A stretch of 38,725 bases of DNA from contig JAGQHF010000029.1 of assembly GCA_020431985.1 (NCBI GenBank), forward strand, positions 1 through 38,725, given 5' to 3'. Made by a program: the position numbers and the translations under genes. Shown here one piece after another: positions 1,905-10,654 of this stretch. Below the pieces are notes generated by a model, which saw nothing but the letters and a program-made list of their open reading frames with translations, was not told where the DNA came from and did not search any database. This stretch comes from Nitrosarchaeum sp. Lineage in GTDB: Archaea > Thermoproteota > Nitrososphaeria > Nitrososphaerales > Nitrosopumilaceae. The first letter of the stretch is position 1, and every line of letters starts with the position of its first letter.

Positions 1905-2138
1905 ATGATATCTAAAGACAATATTGACGATGAAGAATTATCAAATCTGTGTGATATTGTGGAAAACACATTAGAAAGCATTGTAATCCAATTTAGAGGC
2001 CATTTCTTCGAAGAGGGGATGGAAAATAAGCTAAGATCCCAATTTGAATCTCGCTTAGCAATTCTTATAGAAAAAAAGGATATAATTTCAAGAATTTACC
2101 TAGTCAACAAACACAATACATTGAAACAAGAATTTTAA
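1905..2138 (+). CDS. Small hypothetical protein
   Basis: A 77-residue, charged, probably all-helical protein that I do not recognise. It starts MISKDNIDDEELSNL and has an acidic first third and a basic last third. It is divergent from the DUF504-like gene, with an A/T-rich element (TAAATTATAAA) around 1861-1871 that could serve as its TATA box with a short leader. There is no signal peptide, membrane segment or metal motif. Codon use looks like the neighbours. It could be a lineage-specific small cytosolic protein. Confidence 0.55.
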   Translation: MISKDNIDDEELSNLCDIVENTLESIVIQFRGHFFEEGMENKLRSQFESRLAILIEKKDIISRIYLVNKHNTLKQEF

Positions 2139-2218
2139 AAGCTCTGGATCTTTTTAAAAAAGAATACGAATCCTGATACTTCCAAAATTTTCTAATATGC
2201 CTACTCCTTTATCTCTAC

Positions 2219-2572
2219 ATGGACTTAAAGTCATTATGTGAAGATGTAATGGAATCTGACCCTAAAATCCGGTTTTCCATGATTGTTGTAGATGGGGAGA
2301 AAAAATATGGTGGTTACCGATATGATACGGTTGAAATTTTGAATTCGGATGAATTGGACAGATCTATCTGGTATGCATATGAGAGGATGTGTGGAAGACA
2401 TAGTCAAGAACACAAGCTTGGAAAGACAAAGTTTGCCCTTGGTGTTTATGAAAATGTAAAAAGAGCAACTTTTCCTTTAAACCGTCATACTTTGTTACTT
2501 GTGAGCATGGAACCCAACTCTGATCATGATGGCATAATCAACAAAGTTTTGAAACTTATCGAGAAGGCATAG
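2219..2572 (+). CDS. Hypothetical protein, possibly roadblock-like fold
   Basis: A 117-residue cytosolic protein. The N-terminal helix is followed by a strand pair (RFSMIVVDG, KKYGGYRYD), a helix, and a C-terminal strand-helix unit (TLLLVSMEPN, then DGIINKVLKLIEK). That order is reminiscent of roadblock/longin-like domains, but I see no diagnostic motif, so the fold is a guess. An A/T-rich box near 2189-2198 lies about 25 nt before the ATG. It stands just upstream of the HAD phosphatase, which has its own promoter-like box. Confidence 0.7.
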   Translation: MDLKSLCEDVMESDPKIRFSMIVVDGEKKYGGYRYDTVEILNSDELDRSIWYAYERMCGRHSQEHKLGKTKFALGVYENVKRATFPLNRHTLLLVSMEPNSDHDGIINKVLKLIEKA

Positions 2573-2573
2573 C

Positions 2574-2582
2574 ATATATTTT
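2574..2582 (+). promoter_or_regulatory. TATA-like box for the HAD phosphatase/argS genes
   Basis: The sequence CATATATTT lies about 24 nt upstream of the ATG at 2602, with no ribosome-binding site between. The spacing fits a leaderless archaeal transcript reading into the phosphatase and argS. Confidence 0.5.
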
Positions 2583-2601
2583 TGACACAGAAACTTCTCC
2601 C

Positions 2602-3297
2602 ATGAATCAAAAAACTTTTGCAGTGGATATTGATGGAACGATAACAGAAAATGGTGGTGGAAGAATACATTTGGATGCATTAGCAGCATTACGGCATTTG
2701 ACTCTTTTAGGACACAACGTTATTTTTGTTACAGGCCGCTCTTCAATTGAGGGTTATTTACTTGCTGTATTTGGCGGAACAACAAAAATTGCGGTTGGAG
2801 AAAATGGTGGTTGTATAACCCTAGATACCAATGAACACATTAAACTTGGAAACATGGACAAATGCCAAGAGGCACTGAGAATAATTCAAAAAAATATTGA
2901 TAATGTATTTGAAAAGCCAGTATTTCCCAGAATGACAGAAGTAGTCTTGGAACGTACATTTGATTTAGACTTGGCACGACGCCTCATGGAATCACAAAAA
3001 ATTGACGTCTCTTTATCTGATAGCCAATATGCATTTCACATAAACTCATCTGGAGTCGACAAAGGAACTGGATTCAAAGAGATCATGAAAAAACTTTCGA
3101 TACAACCAAACGATGTAATTGCTATTGGAGACAGTGCAACCGACATACCTTTGTTTAAAATAGCAAAAACCAGCATTGCTTTGGGTAATGCCTCTGAATT
3201 TGTGAAATCTGAGGCCACAATGACTATGTCTGCCAAGGCGGGAGATGGTGTTATTGAGGCATTAGATACATTAGCGCCAACATTATCTAGATTATAG
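2602..3297 (+). CDS. pgp: HAD-family phosphatase, archaeal phosphoglycolate phosphatase type
   Basis: A 231-residue HAD hydrolase (class IIB cap). Motif I is DIDGT near residue 9, with the nucleophile and acid/base Asp pair. Motif II is the Thr of VTGRS near residue 44, the conserved Lys is in SGVDKGTG, and motif III/IV is GDSATDIPLF. This fits archaeal phosphoglycolate phosphatase (TA0175 type), which removes phosphate from 2-phosphoglycolate. Related IIB enzymes act on sugar phosphates, so the substrate is less certain than the family. argS begins 2 nt after its stop codon, which indicates one transcript. Confidence 0.85.
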   Translation: MNQKTFAVDIDGTITENGGGRIHLDALAALRHLTLLGHNVIFVTGRSSIEGYLLAVFGGTTKIAVGENGGCITLDTNEHIKLGNMDKCQEALRIIQKNIDNVFEKPVFPRMTEVVLERTFDLDLARRLMESQKIDVSLSDSQYAFHINSSGVDKGTGFKEIMKKLSIQPNDVIAIGDSATDIPLFKIAKTSIALGNASEFVKSEATMTMSAKAGDGVIEALDTLAPTLSRL

Positions 3298-3299
3298 GC

Positions 3300-5186
3300 A
3301 TGTCATTCAAATCAATAATCGACGAGATTGAAAATAATCTAAATAAAATCTTAGACGATCTATCCGTATATGATGTTCCGTTTTCCGTTGAGCCAGCAAA
3401 GCCTGGATTTGGCGATGTAAGCTCTAACATTGCTTTCTTACTGGCAAAACATTTGAAAAAAAAACCCAGTGATATTGCCTTGCTTGTTTCGGAGAAATAC
3501 TCCTCATGCACAAGCACACTTGTTCTTAAATCTGAAGCTCATTTGTCTGGTTATCTAAACTTTTTTGCAGATTGGGAAAAACTCAACCAATTAATCATTT
3601 CAGAGTCAGTTCTAGATGAATATGGCTCTGTAAATCTTGGACGCGGATTACAAGTTACAGTTGAGCATACAAGTGTAAACCCAAATAAAGCACTACACAT
3701 TGGTCACATCCGTAATATAGTAATTGGTGATGTTCTCTCCCGGATACTGGTAAAATCTAATCATGACGTAAAAATCTTAAATTACATTGATGATTCTGGA
3801 CTGCAAGTAGCTGACATTATAGTTGGGTTTAAACATCTCGACTTTGATCAAAACCCGCCAGATGCAAAAAAGTTTGATCATTACTGTGGAGATGTTGTAT
3901 ATGTTAAAACAACTGAAAAGTACGAGTCTGATTCTAATTTACAGGAAATTCGAAAGAACACTCTAAAAGAATTAGAAAATGAGCATTCAGACACAGCAAA
4001 ATTTGCAGATCACATCACAAAACGTGTTCTATCTGCTCAGCTAGAGACATGTTGGAATCTGGGTGTTTATTATGATTGTCTTAATTTTGAATCACAGATA
4101 ATTCGTTCTGGGTTGTGGAAGAAAATTTTTGAAAATCTAAAAGATCTCCACATCATCGAATATGAAAATGAGGGAAAGAACGCGGGATGTTGGACAATCA
4201 AAGGTGAAGAAAATGAAGAGGACAAAGTGCTTGTGAGAAGTAATGGAACTGCTACATACATTGCAAAAGATATCCCATATGCAGTTTGGAAACTTGGATT
4301 GATAGATGACCCGTTTAATTACAGAAAGTATGAAAAAAACCAACCTTCCAAGAAAATTTTATGGCAAACTACTCTGGATGAATCTACCGAACCAAAACAA
4401 AAATTTTCAGGACAAAAGGTAATCACAGTTATAGATTCAAGACAAACAAGATTACAAAAAATCATAACTTCACTTATCCGAAAATTAAGTAATACTGACA
4501 ATTCATATCTACATCTAAGTTATGAATCAGTAACATTAAGTCCAGACACGGCAAAAACTCTGGGATTGAATACTGGTGGGAAACAAGCTCAAATGTCTGG
4601 TAGAAAAGGTCTCTATGTAAATGCAGATTCTGTTTACAGTTTACTTAAATCCAAGACAATCAAAGAAACTCAAAGACGCCACCCAGAGCTGTCAGAATCG
4701 GAAATTGAGACAATTGCCCATCAAGTAACAGTTGGCACATTACGTTACGAAATGATCAAACAAGATCTTGACAAAATCATTTCTTTTGACTTGACAAAAT
4801 CCCTTAGTCTTGAAGGGGATACTGCATCCTATATTCAATATGCTCATGCCCGTGCAACCCGAATCTTAGAAAAGTCTGAAAAGTTGGTTACAATAGATGT
4901 CAATTTTGGCCTTCTTTCTGATTTACATGAAAAGGAACTTATCAAAATGATTGGCTTATTTGACATACAGGTCATTGACGCTGCCAAGAATCTTTCGCCT
5001 AAAGTAATTTCTCGATACTGTCACGATCTTGCAGTTGCTTTCAATTCATTTTATGAACATGTTAAGGTATTGGGGTTGGATGATAACACTCTTGAAGATG
5101 CCCGATTATGTTTGGTCAATTCGTTTAAAAACACCATTGAAAAATCCCTTGACATACTTGGTATTTCTGCTCCAAGCAAGATGTAA
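3300..5186 (+). CDS. argS: Arginine-tRNA ligase
   Basis: A 628-residue class I aminoacyl-tRNA synthetase that charges tRNA-Arg. An N-terminal Arg-tRNA synthetase domain (about 1-110) precedes the HIGH signature HIGH at 133-136 within NPNKALHIGH. The KMSKS-equivalent loop is QMSGRKG near 432, and a DALR anticodon-binding domain follows from about 510. The length is normal. It follows the phosphatase after 2 nt, so translation is probably coupled. About 90 nt without a gene separate it from trmI. Confidence 0.97.
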   Translation: MSFKSIIDEIENNLNKILDDLSVYDVPFSVEPAKPGFGDVSSNIAFLLAKHLKKKPSDIALLVSEKYSSCTSTLVLKSEAHLSGYLNFFADWEKLNQLIISESVLDEYGSVNLGRGLQVTVEHTSVNPNKALHIGHIRNIVIGDVLSRILVKSNHDVKILNYIDDSGLQVADIIVGFKHLDFDQNPPDAKKFDHYCGDVVYVKTTEKYESDSNLQEIRKNTLKELENEHSDTAKFADHITKRVLSAQLETCWNLGVYYDCLNFESQIIRSGLWKKIFENLKDLHIIEYENEGKNAGCWTIKGEENEEDKVLVRSNGTATYIAKDIPYAVWKLGLIDDPFNYRKYEKNQPSKKILWQTTLDESTEPKQKFSGQKVITVIDSRQTRLQKIITSLIRKLSNTDNSYLHLSYESVTLSPDTAKTLGLNTGGKQAQMSGRKGLYVNADSVYSLLKSKTIKETQRRHPELSESEIETIAHQVTVGTLRYEMIKQDLDKIISFDLTKSLSLEGDTASYIQYAHARATRILEKSEKLVTIDVNFGLLSDLHEKELIKMIGLFDIQVIDAAKNLSPKVISRYCHDLAVAFNSFYEHVKVLGLDDNTLEDARLCLVNSFKNTIEKSLDILGISAPSKM

Positions 5187-6147: not shown

Positions 6148-7011
6148 ATGACAAGAAAAAACCTCCAATTATCCGATGTTAGAAAATTTATTCCGTCACG
6201 TAAGTTCAGCTCTAGAAAAGGAGATAATGGTGTGGTATTGGTTGTGGGCGGCAGTTATCTCTATCATGGAGCTCCCATATTATCATCAATGGCAGCATTG
6301 CGATGTGGGACAGACTTGGTGTATACTGCTGTTCCAAAAACTAATGTCACGTCTACCCGCTCGTTTTCTCCTAACCTTATAGTCATTCCATTAGCAGATC
6401 AAAAACTTACACGCGGTACCGTCACAAAGCTTCTTGGGATGCTGCCGAGAAATTTGGACGCTGCAACCATCGGAATGGGACTTGCCATTCAGGAAAAAAA
6501 TGCTTTGATTAATCTTATAAAATCACTGCTTGACAAAGATGTTCGTTTGTCTTTAGATGCTAGTGCTTTGTTTCCTGATGTTTTACAATTTCTTTGTGAT
6601 AAAAATGTCGTCGTAACCCCTCATGCTGGAGAATTTCAGAGGCTTTTTGGAGTATCGCCTCCTATTTCTAAAAATGAAAGAACTAAGATGGTAGAAAAAT
6701 ATGCATTGGATCATGGAATTACAGTGTTATTGAAAGGCCCTACTGACATCATCTCTGATGGGAAAACAACTTTTCTTTATGAGAAAAAAACTCCAGCCAT
6801 GACTGTTGGTGGAACTGGAGATGTATTATCTGGACTTGTTGCAGGCATGCTATCAAAAAACCGCAATACTGTAGAATCTGCATCTGCGGCCGCATTCATA
6901 AATGGCCTTGCAGGAAAAAAAGCTCAAAAAAATTTAGGTCTACATATGACTTCTATGGATTTAATAGATGAACTTCCGGGTGCGATGAAGCCATTTGATA
7001 AAATAGTTTGA
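6148..7011 (+). CDS. nnrD: ADP-dependent (S)-NAD(P)H-hydrate dehydratase
   Basis: A 287-residue ribokinase-fold enzyme of the YjeF C-terminal family that repairs hydrated NAD(P)H using ADP (or ATP). Visible signatures are KGDNGVVLVVGGS at about 24-36, TPHAGEFQRLFG (about 157-168), the KGPTDII segment, and the anion-hole motif GGTGDVLSGLVAG near 222-234. In many organisms it is fused to the NnrE epimerase; here the N-terminal epimerase domain is absent. The following peptidase gene begins just after or overlapping the stop codon. Confidence 0.93.
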   Translation: MTRKNLQLSDVRKFIPSRKFSSRKGDNGVVLVVGGSYLYHGAPILSSMAALRCGTDLVYTAVPKTNVTSTRSFSPNLIVIPLADQKLTRGTVTKLLGMLPRNLDAATIGMGLAIQEKNALINLIKSLLDKDVRLSLDASALFPDVLQFLCDKNVVVTPHAGEFQRLFGVSPPISKNERTKMVEKYALDHGITVLLKGPTDIISDGKTTFLYEKKTPAMTVGGTGDVLSGLVAGMLSKNRNTVESASAAAFINGLAGKKAQKNLGLHMTSMDLIDELPGAMKPFDKIV

Positions 7012-7016
7012 CGCTA

Positions 7017-8369
7017 ATGAATCCGTTAAAATATGTAGATTCACAAATGCCGCAGCTTCTTTCTGATTTACAGAAACTCATTAGACAACCTAGCATATCT
7101 GCAAAAAACGAAGGAATCGAAGAATGCGCAAAATTGGTTAAACAACTGCTGACAAAAACTGGCATAAAATCTGAAATACTGAGATTGAAAGGCGCTGCAC
7201 CAGTAGTTTATGGCGAAATAATCTCAAAATCAAATCCCTCGAAAACATTACTTTTCTATAACCATTATGATGTCCAGCCTGTAGAACCGTTCAATTTGTG
7301 GGATGATCATCCATTTAGTGGAAAGATAAAAGGAAACAAGATTTTTGGTCGTGGTTCTTCTGACGACAAGGGCGAACTAATTACAAGAATTCAAGCTGTT
7401 AGCGCATATGTGAAAACAACAGGGGATGTCCCATGCAATATTAAATTCCTAATTGAAGGGGAGGAAGAAACCGGAAGTGCCCATATTGAAAATTATCTAA
7501 AAAAATACCGTAGAAAATTTTCATGTGATGGAGTTATCTGGGAATTTGGTTACGTTGATTCAAAGAATAGGCCTGTTGTTGGATTAGGAATGAAAGGACT
7601 TTTGTTTGTTGAATTGTCAATTATTGAATCAATCCGCGATGCTCACTCTAGCTTGGCAGTTCTAATAAAAAATCCTGCATGGAGGCTCATTAATGCATTA
7701 AATACACTACGTGACACAAATGGACGAATTCTAATAAAAGATTGGTACAAAGATGTAAAACCATTGTCTAAAGATGAATTGCGTATAATCTCAAAAGAAC
7801 CATTTGATGAACAATCTTTTAAGAAAGAGTTTGGTGTATCGTCATTTATTGGGAATATACATGGGATAAATGCAAAGAAAGCTCTGGTAGGATCTGGAAC
7901 TTGTAATATTGCAGGGCTTGTATCTGGTTATACTGAAGAAGGTGCAAAAACTGTGTTGCCTAGCAAGGCATTAGCTAAAATTGATTTCAGATTAGTGCCT
8001 AACATGGATCCTAAAAAACAAGTACTTAGACTTAAACGTCATTTAAATTCAAAGGGATTTTCTGATATTGATGTTAAGGTTTATCATGGAGAAGCTGCTG
8101 CTAGAACCAATCCTTCAGATCCATTTGTGACCATTGTAAAACAAGCAGCTGATGAGTCATACGGAAAATCAATTCTCAATATATCCAATGCAGGTACTGG
8201 TCCTATGGCGTCATTTGTGAGTGTTCTGAACACTCCTTGTGTCTCCATCGGAAGCACATACATGTTTTCGAGAATACATTCCCCTAACGAATTTGCACGG
8301 ATCGATTTACTTAAAAAAACAACAAAATGCATGTGTCTTGTTATGGATAAAATGGGAAATTTGACCTAG
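7017..8369 (+). CDS. M20 family metallopeptidase (CNDP/ArgE/DapE-like)
   Basis: A cytosolic dinuclear zinc peptidase of about 450 residues. The metal-binding motifs are clear: HYDVQP near residue 80, GRGSSDDKGEL near 110, and EGEEETGS near 150. The dimerisation-domain segment containing LPSKALAKIDFR and a C-terminal His region follow. The layout is closest to the CNDP2-like dipeptidase branch of M20, but ArgE/DapE-type amidohydrolases share these motifs, so the substrate is open. I chose ATG at 7017, 5 nt after the nnrD stop; TTG at 7008 would overlap it. Confidence 0.9.
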   Translation: MNPLKYVDSQMPQLLSDLQKLIRQPSISAKNEGIEECAKLVKQLLTKTGIKSEILRLKGAAPVVYGEIISKSNPSKTLLFYNHYDVQPVEPFNLWDDHPFSGKIKGNKIFGRGSSDDKGELITRIQAVSAYVKTTGDVPCNIKFLIEGEEETGSAHIENYLKKYRRKFSCDGVIWEFGYVDSKNRPVVGLGMKGLLFVELSIIESIRDAHSSLAVLIKNPAWRLINALNTLRDTNGRILIKDWYKDVKPLSKDELRIISKEPFDEQSFKKEFGVSSFIGNIHGINAKKALVGSGTCNIAGLVSGYTEEGAKTVLPSKALAKIDFRLVPNMDPKKQVLRLKRHLNSKGFSDIDVKVYHGEAAARTNPSDPFVTIVKQAADESYGKSILNISNAGTGPMASFVSVLNTPCVSIGSTYMFSRIHSPNEFARIDLLKKTTKCMCLVMDKMGNLT

Positions 8370-8522
8370 CATGATGCTGTCTTTGTATTGTATATGTGAT
8401 CGAAAAACAATCCACCAAAATTGAAAGTATTACGGTACATTCTATTTCAAATTTGTCTAATCTCTAATGGCGCTCCTCATTGTATAAAATATTTGTTCAC
8501 GGGCATCTCTGAGGAGAAAGCC

Positions 8523-8532
8523 CTTTATTATG
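8523..8532 (+). promoter_or_regulatory. TATA-like box upstream of psmB
   Basis: CTTTATTATG is centred about 25 nt before the psmB ATG, which fits a leaderless transcript. A second A/T box, TATAAAAT at 8483-8490, lies 62 nt upstream and would give a leader of about 36 nt. Either could be the real promoter. Confidence 0.45.
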
Positions 8533-8551
8533 CTCTAAAATGATTTGATAC

Positions 8552-9148
8552 ATGTCTATGTATATGCCTGGTGCTACCGCAGTAGGTATTACTTTTGATG
8601 GCGGTGTTGTGCTAGCCAGCGAAAAGAGAATTGCCTTTGGTAACTTCCTAGTGAGCAAATCCTCAAAAAAGACCTTTCCTATCACCCCAAAAGTGGGTGC
8701 AACTTGTGCGGGTCTAGTTGCAGACATGCAAATTCTTTCACTTCAAATCGCTGCTCTTGCAAAAATTCGAAAAATGGAATTAAAACGAGATATTCCTCCA
8801 AACACCGTGGCAAAAATGATGTCTAACATGATGTATGAGAGAAGATTCTTTCCACTCTTGACTCAGGTAATTGTAGGTGGTGTAGTTGACAAGCCTGTTA
8901 TGTATACTTTAGATCCATTGGGTTCTGTACTGCCAGATGAGTATGCTGCTGTGGGTACTGGTGCTGAAATGGCCTTGGGAGTCTTAGATCCTCAATTCAA
9001 ACCAAATATGACCAAAAATGAAGCAGTTGATTTGGCTAAAAAAGCAATTAGATCTGCCACCCTAAGAGACTCTGCAAGCGGTGATGGGCTTGACGTACTT
9101 GTAATAACTGATAGTGGAACCGAAGAGTTTACTGAAAAAATAAACTAG
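8552..9148 (+). CDS. psmB: Proteasome beta subunit, probably non-catalytic
   Basis: A 198-residue 20S proteasome beta subunit (Ntn-hydrolase fold). A seven-residue leader ending in Gly is followed by ATAVGITFDGG, where active subunits read TTTVGI. Residue 8, equivalent to Thr1, is therefore Ala. Other active-site positions are kept: Glu24 (position 17, as in Thermoplasma), Lys40 (Lys33) and the DSASGDG segment near 170. Loss of the Thr1 nucleophile should prevent both self-processing and proteolysis, so it would act as a structural or assembly subunit with an active paralogue elsewhere. It converges with the PUA gene, overlapping by 4 nt at shared stop codons. Confidence 0.93.
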   Translation: MSMYMPGATAVGITFDGGVVLASEKRIAFGNFLVSKSSKKTFPITPKVGATCAGLVADMQILSLQIAALAKIRKMELKRDIPPNTVAKMMSNMMYERRFFPLLTQVIVGGVVDKPVMYTLDPLGSVLPDEYAAVGTGAEMALGVLDPQFKPNMTKNEAVDLAKKAIRSATLRDSASGDGLDVLVITDSGTEEFTEKIN

Positions 9149-9636
9149 CTATAGATAGTTTTCCCAATTTCCCAATATTTATCTGAAATATAGTGTATGT
9201 TTTTTATTATTTCGCCCTTTTCCATGGTTCCTATGTCTTGACTAGAAACCAGTGCTTTACCTACGGCCAAAAATTTATTCTGTGACTCTTCTATAATGCA
9301 GACCATATTGTCTTTTTCAAAATCAGAATATTTTTTTATTCCTGGTCTCATTACGTTTGCTCCATTACACATGAATTTCACGGCACCCATATCCACCATG
9401 ACATAGGGGAATTTTTTCAGCAGTTCTGTTTCAGACAGAAATGGTATGTATTCATCATCGATACTTAGTATTTTCATCTCATTTCCTGTAATTATCTGGG
9501 CTTGTTCCGAAATCTGATGAACTCTTAAATTTTTAATTTTTGGAAATGAGATGTTCCATCTTTTTGAGATCTTTTCTAAAAGCTTGGCTGTTTCACTTTT
9601 TGAAATTAGGTTAGATTTCATTTTTCTATCTTGCAC
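9145..9636 (-). CDS. PUA-domain RNA-binding protein (MCT-1/Tma20-like)
   Basis: A 163-residue protein with an N-terminal pre-PUA domain (1-75) and a C-terminal PUA domain. The PUA core shows VDMGAVKFMCNGANVMRPGI at about 81-100, the typical hairpin that binds structured RNA. The layout matches archaeal relatives of MCTS1/Tma20, which act in translation initiation or ribosome recycling in eukaryotes. The longest frame starts with GTG at 9636; ATG at 9621 is an alternative. It follows homoserine dehydrogenase by 7 nt, so the two probably share a transcript. Confidence 0.85.
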   Translation of the reverse strand: MQDRKMKSNLISKSETAKLLEKISKRWNISFPKIKNLRVHQISEQAQIITGNEMKILSIDDEYIPFLSETELLKKFPYVMVDMGAVKFMCNGANVMRPGIKKYSDFEKDNMVCIIEESQNKFLAVGKALVSSQDIGTMEKGEIIKNIHYISDKYWEIGKTIYS

Positions 9637-9643
9637 ATGTATC

Positions 9644-10654
9644 CTAAATTCGAGCTATTTCCTTTCTTATATCAAGCAAATCTCTGAGTATGGAGCTAGC
9701 TGTTTCTATTCCTCCTGCCCCCCTTCCTATAATAGTTTGAGTACCAGAATGCTCAGATGTAAATGCAATTGCATTAAGAGTTCCATTGACGCAAAGAGGA
9801 TCATCAATCGGAACTTCAATTGGTGACACTTTCAATTCTTTATTACATGATGCTATCAATTTAACTGCGCACTTGTTTTTTGCTGCATTTTTGATATCGC
9901 TAGTTGTAACGGTTCGTATTCCAGTACAGTCAATGTCTGGCATGGTGACTTTCATATCCATTATCCAATTTGCAAGTATGACCAACTTCGCTGCAGCATC
10001 AAGCCCATCCAAGTCTAAAGATTCATCTGCCTCGACATATCCCTTCTTCTTTGCATCTTGCAGGGCTTCATCAAAAGAGAGTCCGTTTGTCATATTTGTT
10101 AAAATGTAATTTGTTGTACCGTTTAAAATTCCAGCAAATGATGTTATCCTCTCTCCTCTGAGACTGTTTTTAGCATAATCCAGTATTGGTGTTCCGCCTC
10201 CTACTGTCCCACTAAACTTGAACATCACTTGATTATACGTGGCCAATTCCATTAATGATGGAAACGCCAAAGCTAAAGGTCCCTTGTTGACAGATATGAC
10301 GTGCATCTTATGTTTCATCGCATTTGTAATGTGTGACATCCCTGGTTCTGCATCCTTGTAGTTGCTTGCCGTGGTTTCTATGAGCACCTCTGCATCAAGG
10401 TTTTTTATCATGTCTATTCCAGACAATGCATTTTTTGTTTTTGAATAGTTTTTCACAGTCCCTGTTTTTTTCTTTGTATCGATTAGTTTCTCTAGATCTA
10501 ATCCTGATTGGTCTACAGCGCTCCCTCTGCTATCAAATACCCCTACTACTCGTGGCTTTAATCCGTATTTTGCATAAAGATCTTCTGATCTGGAAACGAA
10601 CAGCTTGACTAAGCTTTGACCTACTACACCAAATCCACATAATATGATTCTCAA
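9644..10654 (-). CDS. hom: Homoserine dehydrogenase
   Basis: A 336-residue oxidoreductase converting aspartate semialdehyde to homoserine, the branch point toward threonine and methionine. The N-terminal Rossmann motif is GFGVVGQSL at 7-15. The family signature ILNGTTNYILT lies near 177-187, and ADESLDLDGLDAAAK follows, holding the conserved acidic catalytic and substrate residues. There is no C-terminal ACT domain, so this is the short form without the usual feedback module. It is the first gene of a unit with the PUA protein; neither gene explains the other's role. Confidence 0.95.
   Translation of the reverse strand: MRIILCGFGVVGQSLVKLFVSRSEDLYAKYGLKPRVVGVFDSRGSAVDQSGLDLEKLIDTKKKTGTVKNYSKTKNALSGIDMIKNLDAEVLIETTASNYKDAEPGMSHITNAMKHKMHVISVNKGPLALAFPSLMELATYNQVMFKFSGTVGGGTPILDYAKNSLRGERITSFAGILNGTTNYILTNMTNGLSFDEALQDAKKKGYVEADESLDLDGLDAAAKLVILANWIMDMKVTMPDIDCTGIRTVTTSDIKNAAKNKCAVKLIASCNKELKVSPIEVPIDDPLCVNGTLNAIAFTSEHSGTQTIIGRGAGGIETASSILRDLLDIRKEIARI

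Follow-up and report, generated by a model that had tools for sequence, protein, structure and literature searches.

The psmB gene of this Nitrosarchaeum sp. metagenome-assembled genome (MAG) encodes a proteasome β subunit with alanine in place of Thr1, and its product is very probably an obligate structural, non-catalytic β subunit of the Thermoproteota 20S proteasome, sharing mixed rings with a minority Thr1-bearing β subunit. The gene lies in the window, the 38,725-nucleotide stretch of DNA analysed here (contig JAGQHF010000029.1 of assembly GCA_020431985.1). Subunits of this kind were known before from Sulfolobus; what is added is that, in the sequences sampled, the Ala1-type β subunit is phylum-wide in Thermoproteota and of single origin within the sample.

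Position 1 of the psmB product

Frame, start and coordinates of psmB were confirmed (Table 1). The product matches Pfam PF00227 (E = 5e-49), and its predicted structure (mean pLDDT 88, pTM 0.86), confident in the core, matches the solved β chains 1PMA and 6Z46 on structure comparison; it has the Ntn (proteasome) domain and the fold of an archaeal 20S β subunit. There is no alpha-type N-terminal gate extension, and at most 7–8 residues can precede position 1, because only a single codon separates the ATG from the upstream in-frame stop. What the protein does not have is the N-terminal nucleophile of this family. Over the first 40 residues, the alignment with the Thermoplasma acidophilum β subunit (1PMA) contains no gaps; it places Ala8 at position 1, confirming the substitution proposed in the initial annotation. 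The same annotation had the Glu17, Lys33 and SGD-region residues preserved, and this too is borne out by the alignment, in which Gly(−1) (Gly7), Thr2 (Thr9) and Arg19 (Arg26) are also shared with T. acidophilum. Threonine at position 129 is a standard variant within the Ala1-type clade. Against NCBIfam TIGR03634, the archaeal β equivalog model, the product scores 205.4 bits, below the curated cut-off of 224.

Table 1 Features of psmB in the window, and of the Thr1-bearing β subunit in related loci
Feature	Position	Strand	Basis
psmB, non-catalytic (Ala1-type) proteasome β subunit, 198 aa plus stop (ATG at 8552, stop ending at 9148)	8552..9148	+	Pfam, NCBIfam, alignment, predicted fold
Pro-region MSMYMPG	8552..8572	+	Open frame of 199 aa; low pLDDT at residues 1–3
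Codon gct, Ala8 at the Thr1 position (substitution)	8573..8575	+	Alignment; orthologues; codon usage
Thr9 codon, position 2 (rival nucleophile)	8576..8578	+	Thr2 invariant in dead and active β paralogues
Glu24 codon, catalytic Glu/Asp17, kept	8621..8623	+	Alignment
Lys40 codon, catalytic Lys33, kept	8669..8671	+	Alignment; K40 invariant
Thr136 codon, position 129 (Ser in catalytic subunits)	8957..8959	+	Alignment
Asp173–Ser176 codons within RDSASGD, positions Asp166 to Ser169, kept	9068..9079	+	Alignment
Thr1 β subunit with Asn166 and Thr169 instead of Asp166 and Ser169	L044:1498-2103; loci L041-L044, L107-L125, L298-L330		

Within positions 7008–10654 of the window, psmB is preceded by an M20 peptidase gene and followed by a convergent PUA-domain gene that overlaps it by 4 bases (9145–9148); both neighbours, and a homoserine dehydrogenase gene in the same interval, are syntenic across Nitrosopumilaceae. 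A scan for sigma-70 type promoters gave nothing above chance.

Distribution and origin of the Ala1-type subunit

Four other genomes of the genus carry a psmB orthologue, 92–94% identical and likewise with Ala1. Almost every one of the 121 genomes searched in the order encodes one orthologue (49–94% identity) together with a second β subunit (about 28–37%), and Ala1 is present in all 53 distinct orthologues compared, in line with the reading of the initial annotation. All 80 named loci from the genome_contigs scan, whose matches are of the Nitrosopumilaceae type only, read PGATA. Among 114 distinct orthologues from 44 families of the phylum, position 1 is Ala in 105, Gly in five, Ser in two and an alignment gap in two, the last two having Gly there when read by ungapped spacing; Thr1 occurs in none. 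The alanine is encoded by all four GCN codons, and dN/dS of psmB against Nitrosopumilaceae relatives is about 0.02–0.035, with dS near saturation. A value near 0.02 marks psmB as a functional gene under purifying selection, and in combination with the varying codon it indicates that Ala1 itself is maintained. Sequencing error or a pseudogene is ruled out by the orthologues, their codons and dN/dS.

In a tree calculated without positions 1 and 2, the Ala1-type sequences form one clade (support 99/99, a single label change) that is separate from the Thr1-bearing paralogue; the sample comprised Thermoproteota only. One Ala1 sequence (L185), which the best-hit rule had put with the Thr1 type and which was reassigned by hand, groups with the Ala1 type in a first tree. 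The phylum-wide single clade rules out a recent loss within one lineage. It also bears on the initial annotation, which had likened the trait to the non-catalytic β subunit of Crenarchaea: the likeness holds, but a 'comparable' split is too narrow a framing, as the tree shows the same orthologous subunit of one origin.

The proposed split into active and inactive β subunits is likewise upheld by the relatives. A Thr1-bearing paralogue, about 30% identical to the psmB product, is found in all of the remaining four genomes of the genus. Throughout the order, class and phylum, almost all genomes searched encode one member of the Ala1-type clade and at least one Thr1 β subunit; Thr1 is present in 71 of 71 aligned sequences of that type. 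Three genome families (f4, f9 and f20; G226:C52, G163:C8, G196:C15, G199:C3 and G233:C113) have the dead and active β genes about 5–7 kb apart on opposite strands, perhaps an ancestral linkage.

A search of plasmids for psmB relatives returned only haloarchaeal β subunits, at about 30% identity. A Nitrosopumilus-type psmB (91% identity) was also encountered in a MAG labelled as a Phycisphaerae bacterium (L240, JAJDDX010000194.1), a bin that is probably mislabelled or contaminated.

Known systems and alternative readings

The closest solved sequence to the psmB product is 6Z46, the Sulfolobus acidocaldarius 20S particle of Saci0613 and Saci0662 (phmmer, E = 4e-40). The nearest relatives of its β chain in our sample all belong to the Ala1-type clade, as does a family 67% identical to it, and the psmB product groups with this Thermoproteota structural (Saci0662-type) β subunit both by clade orthology and in having a residue other than Thr at position 1. 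Saci0662 and the psmB product are 38% identical over the fold and are alike in clade (by sequence and by tree neighbours), in fold and in having an active β partner. They differ in that the two genomes of the sample nearest to Saci0662 have Ser1 and Val17, whereas psmB has Ala1 and Glu17, and in that Saci0662 comes from a thermophile and its activity was measured, whereas psmB is known from its sequence. With α, Saci0662 forms a 28-mer without activity; Saci0909 alone with α does not assemble, and when both β subunits are present it joins the ring at a lower ratio and confers activity (PMC4569737). For Saci0662, the authors of that study wrote of an equivalent Thr and not of a loss of Thr1 (PMC4569737).

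Other systems are more distant. Catalytic archaeal β subunits (T. acidophilum 1PMA, Archaeoglobus fulgidus 1J2Q) share with psmB the fold, Gly(−1), Thr2, Glu17, Lys33, Asp166 and Ser169, but they are of the type that forms homomeric rings with 14 sites, whereas the psmB product has Ala for Thr1 and falls short of the equivalog cut-off. In eukaryotes, the inert β3, β4, β6 and β7 subunits sit in rings together with a small number of active subunits. The likeness to the archaeal subunit is one of arrangement, and the archaeal case differs in that one gene would supply several positions of the ring. Pyrococcus furiosus also has two β subunits, PsmB1 and PsmB2, but Thr is present in both (T7 and T11, mutated to Ala; PMC3605417). 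In yeast, T1A subunits show neither autolysis nor activity (PMC4792962). A search of largely open-access literature found no biochemistry of any Nitrososphaeria proteasome and no report of Ala1 β subunits in this class or of a natural Asn166; a mention in reviews is quite possible.

Could the nucleophile instead lie one residue further in, with Thr9 (position 2) exposed by cleavage or by aminopeptidase trimming after Ala8? In favour of this, no member of the clade lacks Thr2, and Glu17, Lys33 and Asp166 are all kept. However, the Thr1-bearing paralogue shows the same invariance of Thr2, and T. acidophilum has this residue as well; its conservation therefore does not speak for catalysis. From Thr2, moreover, Glu17 and Lys33 are one residue closer than the known geometry demands. 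Residue 2 of the 6Z46 chain is likewise a Thr in this register, from which we infer that the Saci0662 construct truncated of its pro-region starts with Met followed by Thr2. That construct, which does not have the natural N-terminus, assembled into a stable particle without activity (PMC4569737). By analogy, this inert particle argues against Thr2 as nucleophile, and together with the register it leaves very unlikely a possibility that the initial annotation had named as grounds for abandoning its reading. A separate role for the whole subunit, namely that it and α form their own homomeric, non-proteolytic 20S particle (holding or chaperone-like) apart from an active Thr1 particle, also seems unlikely, if somewhat less so. 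Two α genes are often present, and Saci0662 alone can make a 28-mer with α; yet in Sulfolobus the active subunit alone bound no α and needed the inert subunit to enter the ring, and families f2, f4 and f6 retain both β subunits with only three PF00227 genes, so that a single α serves both.

The remaining alternative, a proteasome left wholly inactive by loss of the catalytic β, arises because the window's own MAG contains no second β subunit at E values up to 10, its sole β being psmB. The initial annotation called for a second psmB with Thr1 in the genome; there is none in this MAG, but the evidence points to an assembly gap. In relatives, the Thr1 β gene overlaps the start of the gene for the archaeal transcription-termination factor aCPSF1 and adjoins a glycerol-1-phosphate dehydrogenase (G1PDH) gene. 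The window's assembly (264 contigs, 96% complete) contains neither flank. aCPSF1 is conserved across archaea; searched as a protein, it has no match in this assembly, whereas two relatives in the genus have it at 93–96% identity. As the whole block is missing, including a factor found archaea-wide, the absence of the Thr1 partner is attributed to a gap, and a real absence from the organism is ruled out by the missing neighbours; with a second β in all four other genomes of the genus, a wholly inactive proteasome is scarcely credible. The overlap itself measures about 30 bases in one locus (L044, catalytic psmB at 1465–2106 and aCPSF1, KH-CPSF, at 2075–3559), and this arrangement suggests that catalytic psmB may be co-expressed with aCPSF1.

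Taken together, the Sulfolobus biochemistry, the clade placement and the yeast T1A subunits make a structural β subunit in mixed rings with a minority active β the best-supported account. Without the Thr1 hydroxyl, the psmB product would be unable to process its short pro-region or to cut peptides. With its fold and the other active-site residues intact, it would pack with the α rings and form most of each inner β ring, with the diverged second β (Thr1/Asp17/Lys33) interspersed as the sole source of cutting sites. As in eukaryotes, the number of active sites per particle would then be below 14. For this organism we infer the mixed rings, their ratio, the reduced number of sites and the lack of activity by analogy. 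On this account, the inert-plus-active arrangement known biochemically from Sulfolobus would reflect one ancient duplication, retained throughout Thermoproteota, among them the ammonia oxidizers that abound in the sea and in soil, and the pair would offer a simple prokaryotic model, of three or four genes, for the evolution of the mixed dead and live rings that characterize the eukaryotic proteasome.

Residue 166 of the catalytic partner and additional subunits

The Thr1 partner in the ammonia-oxidizing order departs from other catalytic subunits at a further position. Of 37 distinct sequences, 34 have Asn166 and Thr169 (RNxGTGD or similar); the other three all belong to f9, the one family checked that departs from this pattern, and a further set of sequences from more families of the order gave the same division between Asn166 and Asp166. 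Outside the order, Asp166 is kept in all 34 Thr1 β subunits; in the Ala1-type subunit it is kept everywhere. The D166N mutation in yeast β5 leaves autolysis intact and strongly reduces activity (PMC4792962). Because it carries Asn166, the activity of the order's Thr1 subunit is not certain. As a tentative suggestion from sequence comparison, the order may combine a mostly Ala1 β ring with a sole widespread Thr1 subunit in which the second triad (Thr1 amine, Ser129, Asp166) is naturally altered, which could leave sites that are few and slow, or differently tuned. The Asn166 partner makes the requirement for Asp166 testable in a natural enzyme.

The complement of α subunits varies. The window's genome encodes two diverged α subunits (G000:C32:7554-8096, L001; G000:C204:10347-10862, L003), and a second α appears to be general in Nitrosopumilaceae; single-contig genomes such as G007 contain the β pair and two α subunits only. 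Elsewhere in the order, some families encode just three PF00227 genes. A sporadic third β subunit, with Asp166 kept and starting MTTIVG(I) at Met, occurs in scattered genomes of several families (L316 in G015, L331, L332, L333 and L214-L216).
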